Shown here in pieces: positions 39,425 through 42,124 of a stretch of 64,000 bases of DNA (position 1 is the stretch's first letter; each line of letters begins with the position of its first letter). The DNA is from Candidatus Zemynaea palustris (GTDB lineage Bacteria; Vulcanimicrobiota; Vulcanimicrobiia; Vulcanimicrobiales; Vulcanimicrobiaceae), in the NCBI GenBank assembly GCA_003134695.1, contig PLCB01000026.1:134045-198044 (forward strand). The letters are read 5' to 3'. Below the pieces are notes generated by a model. The model saw only the letters and a program-made list of their open reading frames with translations. It did not search any database and was not told where the DNA came from. The position numbers were made by a program, and so were the translations under genes.

Positions 39425-40168
39425 CTACGGAGCGACGACGCGGAGTCCTCGATGCGAGCGTTTTGGAACGCGGCCTTCGATACCGAGGGCCGCGAGCAGC
39501 GCAATCCGCTCGTCGGTGAGGTCGGCCGTTCGCGAGCGGCGCAGCGGAACCGGAACGTCCAACTCGAGCACGCCGCGCGCCGGCGCGCCGTCGAGAACGA
39601 CGATCCGGTCGGCGAGGTAGAGCGCCTCCTGGACGTCGTGCGTCACGAGCACCGCCGTCGAGCCGGTTTCACGCACGATCTGCGCGAGCGAAGTCTGCAA
39701 CTCGAGGCGCAAGAGCGCGTCGAGCGCCGAGAGCGGCTCGTCGAGCAACAGGATCTTCGGATTGCGCACCAGCGTCCGAGCGAGCGCCGCGCGTTGCGCC
39801 ATCCCCCCTGAGAGTTGCTTCGGCAGCAGATGCGCCGCCGGCGTCAGCCCGACGAGTTCGAGTACGTCCTTCACGCGCGCGCGTTCGACATCGCTGCGCG
39901 CGGCGAAGGCGACATTTCTCTCGACCGTGAGCCACGGCAACAGGCGCGGTTCTTGGAAAACGAAGCCGAGCTCGTCGCGCACCGCGATCGTCCCCGCATC
40001 CGGCTGCACGAGGCCCGCGATGCAACGCAGCAGCGTGCTCTTTCCGCAGCCGCTCGCCCCGAGGATCGCGAGCGTCTCGCCGGGTTCGACGAAAAGCTCG
40101 AACCGCTCGAGCACCGCGCGGGGACCGTAGTGTTTCGAGAGTCCGTCGATTTCGATCGCATGTCTCAT
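39425..40168 (-). CDS. ssuB: Sulfonate/nitrate/taurine-type ABC transporter ATP-binding protein
   Basis: The 247-residue ATPase of an aliphatic sulfonate-type importer. Walker A is LGASGCGKSTLL, the Q-loop FQEPRLLPWLTVERNV, the signature LSGGMAQRAALAR, Walker B ILLLDEPLSALD and the switch His VTHDVQEA. QEPRLLPW is characteristic of the SsuB/TauB group. The ATG at 40168 overlaps the permease stop by four bases. It is the third gene of ssuA-ssuC-ssuB. Confidence 0.9.
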   Translation of the reverse strand: MRHAIEIDGLSKHYGPRAVLERFELFVEPGETLAILGASGCGKSTLLRCIAGLVQPDAGTIAVRDELGFVFQEPRLLPWLTVERNVAFAARSDVERARVKDVLELVGLTPAAHLLPKQLSGGMAQRAALARTLVRNPKILLLDEPLSALDALLRLELQTSLAQIVRETGSTAVLVTHDVQEALYLADRIVVLDGAPARGVLELDVPVPLRRSRTADLTDERIALLAALGIEGRVPKRSHRGLRVVAP

Positions 40169-40932
40169 GCCGGCAACCCATCGGTCCAGTGCAACAGTCT
40201 GGCTTCGATCCCGCGCATGATGCTCTCCGAGAGCTTTCCGCAGAGCGCGAGCAACACGATCGCGGTGAGAATTTCGTCGGTGCGCGCGATCTGCTGGCCC
40301 TCGGTGAGCATGAATCCCAAACCGCGGGTCGACGCGAGCAACTCGGCCGCCACCAAAAATAACCACGCCTGAGTGAGTCCGATGCGCGCGCCGACCAGGA
40401 GCGAGGGCAGCGCCGCCGGCAAAACGACGCGACGAGCCAACTCGAAGCGCCCGAGGCCGAGCACTTGTCCTACCTCCACCAGCTTCCGGTCGACGTTACG
40501 GATCCCAGCGACCAGGTTCACGTAGATCGGAAAGAACGCGCCGATCGCGATCAGCGTAACCTTCGCGTTTTCGCCGATGCCGAGCCACAACAGCAACAGC
40601 GGGACCCACGCGAGCGACGGAATCGAACGGATCGCTTGCAGCGTCGGATCGAGCGCGGCTTCGATCGGGCGCGACAAGCCGACGAGGCTGGCCAGGACGA
40701 TCGCGAAAGCGAGCGCGACTCCGAATCCGAGCAGCACGCGTTCGATCGAGGCGGCCAAGTGCCGCCACAGGAGTCCGTTCGACCAGAGTGCGCCGAGTTC
40801 GCGCGCGACATCGCCCGGCGACGCGAGCTGGTAGGTCTTCACGCCACCGAGCGAGGTCGCCAAGAACCACGCGATGAGCAGACCAGCCGGCACCGCGAGT
40901 GAGAGAGCGAGTGCCGCCGGACGTTTAGCCAC
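40165..40932 (-). CDS. ssuC: Sulfonate-type ABC transporter permease
   Basis: A 255-residue inner-membrane subunit with six hydrophobic segments. The cytoplasmic EAA loop that contacts the ATPase is QVLGLGRFELARRVVLPAALPSLLVGARIGL. SIPSLAWVPLLLLWLGIGE is typical of the SsuC/TauC group. The start overlaps the end of ssuA by eight bases, so translation is coupled. Confidence 0.9.
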   Translation of the reverse strand: MAKRPAALALSLAVPAGLLIAWFLATSLGGVKTYQLASPGDVARELGALWSNGLLWRHLAASIERVLLGFGVALAFAIVLASLVGLSRPIEAALDPTLQAIRSIPSLAWVPLLLLWLGIGENAKVTLIAIGAFFPIYVNLVAGIRNVDRKLVEVGQVLGLGRFELARRVVLPAALPSLLVGARIGLTQAWLFLVAAELLASTRGLGFMLTEGQQIARTDEILTAIVLLALCGKLSESIMRGIEARLLHWTDGLPA

Positions 40933-41920
40933 GCAACGCCGTCTTCGTTGGTGCGGGATCGACCAGCGCCGCCAGCGCGCCGTCGAGGTCGGCGCCCGGC
41001 AGCGCCAGTTGATTGGCGCGCACGATCGGAATCACGCCTTCGAGTGCGCGGCGATAGTCGGCGCCCGGCGACGGGTTGGGATAGCGCGTCCGCAGGCGCA
41101 GCTGCCGATCGGCGACGCGCGCTTCGAGCCCCGAGGCCTCGGCGACGATTTTCACCGTCTCGTCGAGGTTGGTCGCCGCGAACTTGCGCGCGCGCTCGTA
41201 CTGACGCAGGACCGTCGTAACGACGTCAGGATGGTCGTGCAAGAAATCCTCGCGCACGTTGAGCGCACCGTACGTGTTGTACGCCGGATTGCGGTACAGA
41301 AGGCGCGAGCCGGCATCCAGTTCGGATGCGGCCATGTGCGGGTCGAGGCCGGCCCAGGCGTCGACCTGTCCGCGCTCGAGCGCTTGTCGTCCGTCGGGAT
41401 GCTGCAACTCGACGATCTCGACGTCGTTTTGCGAGAGGCCCGCGTCCTTGAGCGCGCGCAACAGGAAGAAGAACGGGTCGGTTCCCTTCGTCGCCGCGAT
41501 CTTCTTGCCGCGTAATTCTTTGACGTTGCGCAGCGGCGAGTCTTTGCCGATCACCGTCGCCGTCCACTCCGGTTGAGAATAGAGATAGACCGTGCGGATC
41601 GGCGAGCCGTTGGCGCGCGCGAGCAGTGCCGCGCTCCCCGCGGTCGAACCGAACTGGATCGCGTTGGCGGCGAGAAAACTGTTCGCTTTGTTGGAGCCGA
41701 GCGAGAGGACCCACTCGATCTTGGTGCCGATCGGCGCGAGCGCTTCTTCGAGCCAGCCGTATTTTTTCAGAATCAGGCTCGGCGGGTTGTAATAGGCGTA
41801 GTCGACGCCGAGCTTGTCGAGGCCGGCCGCGAACGCGCCGCGCCGAGGCGTCAAGAATGCCGCCGTCGAGAGGGTGAGGGCGCCGCCGACGAACGCGCGT
41901 CGTGAGATTCTGGTCTTCAT
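40925..41920 (-). CDS. ssuA: Sulfonate-type ABC transporter substrate-binding protein, Tat-exported
   Basis: A 331-residue periplasmic binding protein of the SsuA/NMT1 group. A twin-arginine signal (RISRRAFVGGALTLSTAAFL) spans about residues 1-32. The mature part shows LDKLGVDYAYYNPPSLILKKYGWLEEAL, FGSTAGSAALLARANGSPIRTVYLYS and GKKIAATKGTDPFFFLLRALKDAGL. A sulfonate or sulfate-ester ligand is inferred from the family and from a leader peptide rich in Met and Cys upstream. CGGAGG precedes the ATG. Confidence 0.88.
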   Translation of the reverse strand: MKTRISRRAFVGGALTLSTAAFLTPRRGAFAAGLDKLGVDYAYYNPPSLILKKYGWLEEALAPIGTKIEWVLSLGSNKANSFLAANAIQFGSTAGSAALLARANGSPIRTVYLYSQPEWTATVIGKDSPLRNVKELRGKKIAATKGTDPFFFLLRALKDAGLSQNDVEIVELQHPDGRQALERGQVDAWAGLDPHMAASELDAGSRLLYRNPAYNTYGALNVREDFLHDHPDVVTTVLRQYERARKFAATNLDETVKIVAEASGLEARVADRQLRLRTRYPNPSPGADYRRALEGVIPIVRANQLALPGADLDGALAALVDPAPTKTALRG

Positions 41921-41960
41921 GAGAATGTCGCCTCCGGGTGAGAAGGGAAAGCGGGGAAAA

Positions 41961-41988
41961 TAAAAACCGCCTCGGGTTGGCGAGGCGG
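41961..41988 (-). terminator. Intrinsic terminator in the ssu leader (attenuator)
   Basis: On the minus strand CCGCCTCG (41988-41981) pairs perfectly with CGAGGCGG (41974-41967) around CCAACC, followed by TTTTTA and then TTTT. It lies 41 bases upstream of the ssuA ATG and downstream of the promoter, so it must be bypassed for ssuACB expression. Confidence 0.85.
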
Positions 41989-42015
41989 CGATAACTCCGA
42001 TCCGATTCGATCAGG

Positions 42016-42060
42016 TCAAGCTGCGCCTCGTCGACTCGAAATCGAGCGACACATGCACAT
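42016..42060 (-). CDS. Putative Met/Cys leader peptide of the ssu operon
   Basis: A 14-codon reading frame, MCMCRSISSRRGAA, between the promoter and the terminator. Four successive Met/Cys codons (ATG TGC ATG TGT) open it. The CGAGGCG near its end (42030-42024) is complementary to CGCCTCG, the 5' arm of the terminator (41987-41981), so it can form an alternative antiterminator. Stalling for lack of Cys or Met would leave CGAGGCG free and allow read-through. The ribosome-binding site is weak. Confidence 0.6.
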   Translation of the reverse strand: MCMCRSISSRRGAA

Positions 42061-42094
42061 CCGACAGATCGTCGCGATCAAAAGCATTTGCGAT

Positions 42095-42124
42095 TCAATA
42101 CCATAGGCGCGCACCGAGTGTCAA
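42095..42124 (-). promoter_or_regulatory. Sigma-70 type promoter of the ssu operon
   Basis: TTGACA (42124-42119), 18 bases, then TATTGA (42100-42095). The predicted start lies near 42088, about 28 bases before the leader-peptide ATG. The region 42089-42160 separates it from the divergent truA gene. Confidence 0.65.

Follow-up and report, generated by a model that had tools for sequence, protein, structure and literature searches.

The truA-ssuA intergenic region

The window, that is, the whole stretch of 64,000 nucleotides analysed here, comes from a genome of 2.7 Mb in 61 contigs that is 96.7% complete. The closest relatives of its SsuA protein are encoded in MAGs of Candidatus Eremiobacterota / WPS-2. 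The region under study lies between truA on the plus strand and the genes ssuA-ssuC-ssuB on the minus strand. An earlier note on this DNA had proposed an attenuator here, and its description of the named parts matched the sequence base for base. It had placed ssuA next in order, and the gene starts at 41920, with a TIGR01728 score above the cut-off. The features are as follows.

39425..40168, minus strand: ssuB-like ATPase (ABC_tran; NF008420 at 187 bits, below its cut-off)
40165..40932, minus strand: ssuC-like permease (best NCBIfam match NF008470 SsuC, 187 bits, below the cut-off of 347)
40925..41920, minus strand: ssuA, substrate-binding protein (TIGR01728, 222.5 bits against a cut-off of 163.5)
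41931..41935, minus strand: Shine-Dalgarno of ssuA, GGAGG (from the sequence)
41957..41989, minus strand: intrinsic terminator, a 9-pair stem (41989-41966) followed by TTTTATTTT (sequence and terminator scan)
41981..41987, minus strand: region 3, CGCCTCG, common to the predicted antiterminator and the terminator (sequence and folding)
41997..42014, minus strand: small hairpin CTGATC-GAATCG-GATCGG, predicted to become the top of the antiterminator (constrained folding)
42016..42087, minus strand: 23-codon leader peptide frame, MLLIATICRMCMCRSISSRRGAA, on a probably leaderless mRNA (its in-frame ATG follows the -10 by 7 nt)
42024..42030, minus strand: region 2, CGAGGCG, 5' arm of the predicted antiterminator (pairs with 41987-41981; 7 pairs in simulated stalls)
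42029..42051, minus strand: 1:2 hairpin, TGTCGCTCG ATTT CGAG-T-CGACG, over the last Cys codon (RNAalifold consensus; 8/8 model pairs in the window)
42049..42051, minus strand: candidate control codon Cys13 (TGT)
42055..42057, minus strand: candidate control codon Cys11 (TGC)
42064..42066, minus strand: candidate control codon Cys8 (TGT)
42095..42103, minus strand: extended -10 region, TGG TATTGA (from the sequence; TGnTAnnnT-like in relatives, a weak consensus match in the window)
42119..42124, minus strand: -35 element, TTGACA (from the sequence; TTGAC in 14/15 homologous leaders, missing in L045)

The promoter that the earlier note had described, TTGACA and TATTGA separated by 18 nt, is present at 42124-42119 and 42100-42095. 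The -10 hexamer matches the consensus at 3 of 6 positions, a poor fit that we counted against an attenuator, and a generic promoter scan called no promoter at the window leader. Among relatives, TGnTAnnn is kept downstream of TTGAC. The leader had been read as a frame of 14 codons, ATG TGC ATG TGT ... TGA (MCMCRSISSRRGAA, 42060-42016, minus strand). This frame exists, but it continues without a stop to an upstream ATG at 42087, which likely gives a leader of 23 codons. The ATG at 42060 has no Shine-Dalgarno sequence, and neither has the leader frame. Each of the 15 family leaders has an in-frame ATG or GTG 7-11 nt downstream of the -10 box, a spacing that would leave some 0-5 nt of 5' untranslated sequence. 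The mRNA is therefore probably leaderless, with the frame starting at 42087. Cys accounts for 0.26% of the 3127 residues in ten window proteins, and the probability of at least three Cys in 22 residues is 2.5e-5.

The terminator hairpin GCCGCCTCG-CCAACC-CGAGGCGGT consists of eight perfect pairs, in agreement with the perfect 8-bp GC-rich hairpin with a T tract reported before, plus one G-T pair. The alternative pairing of CGAGGCG with CGCCTCG (42030-42024 with 41987-41981) is likewise possible as claimed. In the window by itself this pairing of regions 2 and 3 was not significant (shuffle p = 0.15), a result that counts against the attenuator. When a ribosome stalled at Cys11 or Cys13 was masked in constrained folding and the transcript ended before region 4, 7/7 of the region 2:3 pairs formed at -25.9 kcal/mol, and the antiterminator was extended by the small inner hairpin; a ribosome mask at the stop codon left zero region 2:3 pairs. 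The short transcript folded without a ribosome also formed 6/7 of these pairs, which again weighs against the attenuator. At equilibrium the full-length window RNA always preferred the terminator fold, a further point against the attenuator, and the switch must therefore be kinetic.

Conservation before SsuA orthologues

Whole-leader BLASTN within the family returned the window itself as the sole full match. Since DNA identity was too low for this search, the SsuA protein was used as the query instead. SsuA is encoded at E <= 1e-50 by 17 of 99 family genomes, counting the one that contains the window. One of these proteins (L047) is a 45% identical paralogue whose gene is not preceded by the element, and the 15 orthologous relatives are 61-68% identical to the window SsuA. 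The promoter, the Cys-rich frame, the terminator and the alternative pairing are kept before 15 of the 16 orthologues (the window and 14 relatives), which belong to several genera. Conservation of the Cys frame and the alternative pairing in relatives was the check that the earlier note had named. The lone orthologue without a Cys frame, L032 (genome G029), retains a terminator-like hairpin before ssuA and was counted against the attenuator. Ten of the 15 leaders recur under other labels (L048-L057) as the same sequences and are not extra evidence.

The 15 ssu leaders comprise 19-27 codons, with 2-5 Cys codons each (TGC or TGT). The distance from the last Cys codon to region 2 is 11-21 nt in 14 leaders and 38 nt in L040; in L043 and L044, which contain one further Cys near the stop, the spacing was counted from the preceding Cys. 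In these 14 leaders, region 2 lies just beyond the predicted front edge of a ribosome stalled on the last control codon, given the generally known size of the ribosome footprint. In L045 and L046, the end of region 2 and the stop are 21 nt apart, which places region 2 at the limit of a terminating ribosome's footprint; this was held against the attenuator.

RNAalifold applied to the 15 leaders produced a hairpin that spans the last Cys codons together with the 5' portion of region 2. In this 1:2 hairpin 92.5% of the cells were paired, with two-sided changes at 4 of 8 pairs. The 1:2 and terminator helices together contained 17 two-sided cells compared with a shuffled mean of 6.3 (0 of 500 shuffles), with the consensus structure for this count derived from the same 15 leaders. 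The first automatic alignment displaced the window terminator by 3 columns (6/13 pairs), so that terminator covariation was understated for the window, L043, L044 and L046. The words of region 2 and of the terminator 5' arm differ among genomes (GGATCGGCGAG/CTCGCCGATCC, GGTGAGGT/GCCTCATC and GATCGGCGTAGG/CCTCCGCCGATC; CGAGGCG/CGCCTCG in the window). Shuffle p-values for the region 2:3 pairing of single ssu leaders ranged from 0.003 to 0.26, with a combined value of 2.9e-5 over 14. The pairing is weak in L040 (p = 0.25), which also lacks the usual spacing, and this leader was counted against the attenuator.

For 70 further SsuA homologues that do not belong to the Eremiobacterota set (L058-L127), a list of short frames with at least two Cys was inspected by eye, and the Cys-rich frames did not show the layout. 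Other Cys-containing short frames precede SsuA homologues at five Chloroflexota-like loci. Similar short frames that end in Cys codons were observed as VFAFWPRICEC on Thermomicrobium-like contigs (L060 and L065, also L058) and as ILTTASCLCI on Roseilinea/Anaerolineae contigs (L084 and L102); a comparable terminator was not seen at either.

Sister leaders in the phylum

We built a covariance model (R1) from the 15 ssu leaders only and ran it on the 99 family genomes and 149 phylum genomes with a threshold of E <= 1e-4. Besides the 15 ssu leaders, 58 other matches were obtained, 53 of which are similar leaders with residues that fit the next gene, as named by NCBIfam and Pfam. These leaders and the genes behind them are as follows.

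Cys-rich leaders: sulfite reductase (7), cysH (1), TauE (1), peroxiredoxin (2)
Met leaders, some with Cys or Thr: MetY-type (4), MetX (1), cystathionine gamma-synthase-type (3; L187 doubtful)
Met leaders, some with Cys or Thr: homoserine dehydrogenase (10, plus L262 by likeness to L214)
Val/Leu/Ile leaders: ilvB or ilvC (9)
Phe/Tyr/Trp leaders: prephenate dehydratase-DAHP synthase fusions (9), aroA (2), chorismate mutase (1)
Trp leaders: trpD (2)
Thr leader: aspartate kinase-like gene (1)

L190 and L224 were rejected as false matches with no fitting leader. Doubtful matches were L187, whose frame at the model start has no Met, L216, with neither a frame there nor a clear gene, and L219, whose first gene was not recognised. 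Outside the window's family, matches at E <= 1e-4 occurred in three phylum genomes; L222 and L223 are ilvB leaders from the same order as the window's family, and the third is the false match L224. In 14 genomes of other phyla R1 gave no match at E <= 1e-4 (best 0.0029). The model also matched terminators on the opposite strand, which were kept out of a model R2 by a threshold. The window's own genome contains two weaker matches, Val/Leu/Ile leaders before ilvB and ilvE.

L203, G000:C41:76501-76655: before ilvB, on the same contig as the window, with the same architecture
L204, G000:C41:274181-274314: before ilvE, on the same contig as the window, with the same architecture

For a residue test we used 49 of 60 leaders, or 37 after near-identical ones were removed; L173, L183, L197, L201, L213, L214, L216, L219, L190 and L224 were left out as outside the five classes, then unidentified, or not leaders, and L262 was also left out. 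In the 37 non-redundant leaders, the Val/Leu/Ile fraction was 0.444 before branched-chain genes and 0.152 elsewhere (p = 5e-5), the Cys fraction was 0.158 before sulfite reductase and cysH compared with 0.045 (p = 2e-4), the Met fraction was 0.143 before Met-class genes compared with 0.022 (p = 5e-5), and the Phe/Tyr/Trp fraction was 0.258 before aromatic genes compared with 0.048 (p = 5e-5). Permutation p was thus <= 2e-4 for four classes, with the Trp class represented by one case. Such a match between residues and pathway would have no good explanation if the frames were not translated, and these pathway-matched leaders render attenuation that depends on translation far more probable than chance. 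The region 2:3 pairing of the non-ssu leaders was significant only in sum (11/41 at p < 0.05; summed p = 1.1e-7); over all 55, the mean was 19.1 for a leader's own pairing and 17.6 with swapped partners.

Behind the Cys-rich leaderless leaders L183 and L197 (AMCCCLC and ICCCC) stands a peroxiredoxin gene, whose product may thus be tied to cysteine supply. L173 is a Cys leader (ACCPVCLCC) before a gene for a TauE/SafE-type transporter. Behind the Tyr/Phe/Trp leaders L176, L177, L179, L182, L189, L192, L193, L195 and L198, prephenate dehydratase and DAHP synthase are fused in a protein of ~590 aa.

Predicted attenuation by Cys and its relation to known systems

The features expected of an attenuator were found in the ssu leaders: a control-codon-rich frame, a terminator before the first gene, an exclusive 2:3 pairing (weak in L040) and a 1:2 hairpin. 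We therefore read the element as a classical ribosome-mediated transcription attenuator of the trp kind, in which the control amino acid is Cys and the leader peptide is leaderless, and put the probability of this reading at roughly 0.86. Most likely, a tiny Cys-rich peptide read from the first letters of the RNA would decide whether ssuACB is on or off. From the observed parts, conservation, geometry and residue-to-pathway match in the sister leaders, we infer translation, stalling, readthrough and induction of ssuACB as follows. Transcription would start at, or a few bases from, the leader start codon, and a ribosome would translate the 23-codon leader behind RNA polymerase. With enough Cys-tRNA, the ribosome would reach the stop codon and cover region 2, the terminator (3:4) would form, and transcription would end ~40 bases before ssuA. 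Under a shortage of charged tRNA-Cys, the ribosome would stall on codon 8, 11 or 13, opening the 1:2 hairpin and freeing region 2. Region 2 would then pair with region 3 ahead of the synthesis of region 4, no terminator would form, and ssuACB would be transcribed. The earlier note had the ribosome stall on the first four codons when Cys or Met is scarce. The attenuation layout is supported, but those codons are codons 10-13 of the longer frame, and Cys is the constant signal. We call it constant because all 15 leaders contain 2-5 Cys codons and Met is absent inside L040; Cys would be the main signal, and co-sensing of Met may also occur.

That the leader senses Met, either by itself or in combination with Cys, is unlikely compared with sensing of Cys alone, although it deserves serious weight. 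At least two internal Met codons are present in 14 of the 15 ssu leaders, mostly adjoining Cys codons, so that Met is enriched, and Met-pathway leaders elsewhere look alike (MAMMAMC, MIMAMC). However, Cys occurs in 15/15, L040 contains three Cys but lacks internal Met, and Cys predominates in the leader of cysH (CCCPCRC) and in several of those before sulfite reductase. Two observations argue against translational attenuation or Rho-dependent polarity of the kind described for mycobacterial polycysteine leaders, a reading under which the hairpin of the ssu leaders would be secondary: all 15 ssu genes are preceded by a GC-rich hairpin that has a T-rich tail and can pair with the leader end, and the ssuA Shine-Dalgarno is located beyond the terminator. 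We regard this reading as improbable, even though the available text of PMC13236596 and PMC9031893 describes the closest Cys-peptide precedent as a control of translation.

A riboswitch-like leader that binds a protein or metabolite, with an incidental frame, would account for the conserved RNA helices. We consider it very improbable, because the residues of the sister leaders change with the downstream pathway, which needs translation to make sense, and no Rfam family was found in the window at gathering scores (12 loci gave only a tRNA). Terminator-like sites do arise at random (2 found compared with 0.9 expected), and the pairing in the window alone is not significant. Nevertheless, that a short frame and an ordinary terminator merely happen to lie between truA and ssuA is hardly credible: the layout is conserved before 15/16 orthologues from several genera, and the residues of the sister leaders match their pathways. 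Against chance, conservation in relatives is a stronger argument than Cys composition.

Classical attenuators are those of the trp, his, leu, ilv and phe operons of Proteobacteria. The ssu element resembles them in its leader rich in control residues, its exclusive 1:2, 2:3 and 3:4 pairings and its intrinsic terminator before the operon; it differs in the predicted control by Cys, the probably leaderless start, the transport operon and the phylum. Leaderless attenuators of Corynebacterium glutamicum likewise have the leader start codon at the 5' end of the transcript, as predicted for ssu; at ilvBNC, one nucleotide separates the +1 from the start codon (available text of PMC11857589). However, the attenuators described there (ilvBNC, trp, leuA and aroF) have Val, Trp, Leu or Phe/Tyr leaders (available text of PMC4046766), no Cys/Met leader appears in the available text of PMC4046766 and PMC11857589, the sequences are unrelated, and the phylum is another. 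Mycobacterial polycysteine leaderless frames (Canestrari et al., 2020, as cited in the available text of PMC13236596, PMC9094748 and PMC9031893) and actinobacterial Cys leader peptides (Seliverstov et al., 2005; PMC1262725) share with ssu a Cys-rich peptide before sulfur genes; the leaderless start and the response to Cys are described there and predicted here. In contrast to ssu, which has an intrinsic terminator, these leaders are described in the available text as having no conserved terminator hairpin (PMC1262725) and as acting by translation attenuation (PMC13236596). The literature searched, outside whose coverage most subscription papers lie, yielded no account of leader-peptide attenuation for Eremiobacterota and no Cys leader that is combined with an intrinsic terminator.

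The link of ssuACB to sulfonate supply is uncertain in the source genome. SsuA scored above the TIGR01728 cut-off, but neither a sulfite reductase nor an SsuD-type monooxygenase was detected: the genome, 96.7% complete, gave no PF00296, PF01077 or NF010029 match at E <= 1e-3. The searches for sulfite reductase (NF010029, PF01077) and monooxygenase (PF00296) were positive in 10-11 of 14 control genomes, and sulfite reductase and a luciferase-type/SsuD-type monooxygenase are likely absent from the source genome. A CysK-like enzyme scored 343 bits, just below the cut-off. The Cys leader would imply that the transporter serves cysteine supply.

According to a 2010 survey (available text of PMC2965389), leader-peptide attenuation had been described in Proteobacteria and Actinobacteria and subsequently in Firmicutes. 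The present leaders would place it in a deep, largely uncultured phylum, with a Cys signal and a leaderless start, and their main interest lies in Cys as the control amino acid and in the lineage-wide sister leaders. Tentatively, and at somewhat less than even odds, we propose that Ca. Eremiobacterota possess a lineage-wide network of leaderless, terminator-based attenuators of one architecture before Cys, Met/homoserine, branched-chain, aromatic and Trp genes, for whose Cys control no earlier example with an intrinsic terminator was found, and that 'SsuABC' here imports another cysteine source rather than sulfonates via SsuD. Because the residues of a leader reveal which amino acid the downstream gene serves, such leaders may be used to assign functions to transporters and enzymes of uncertain role in the genomes of uncultured organisms.
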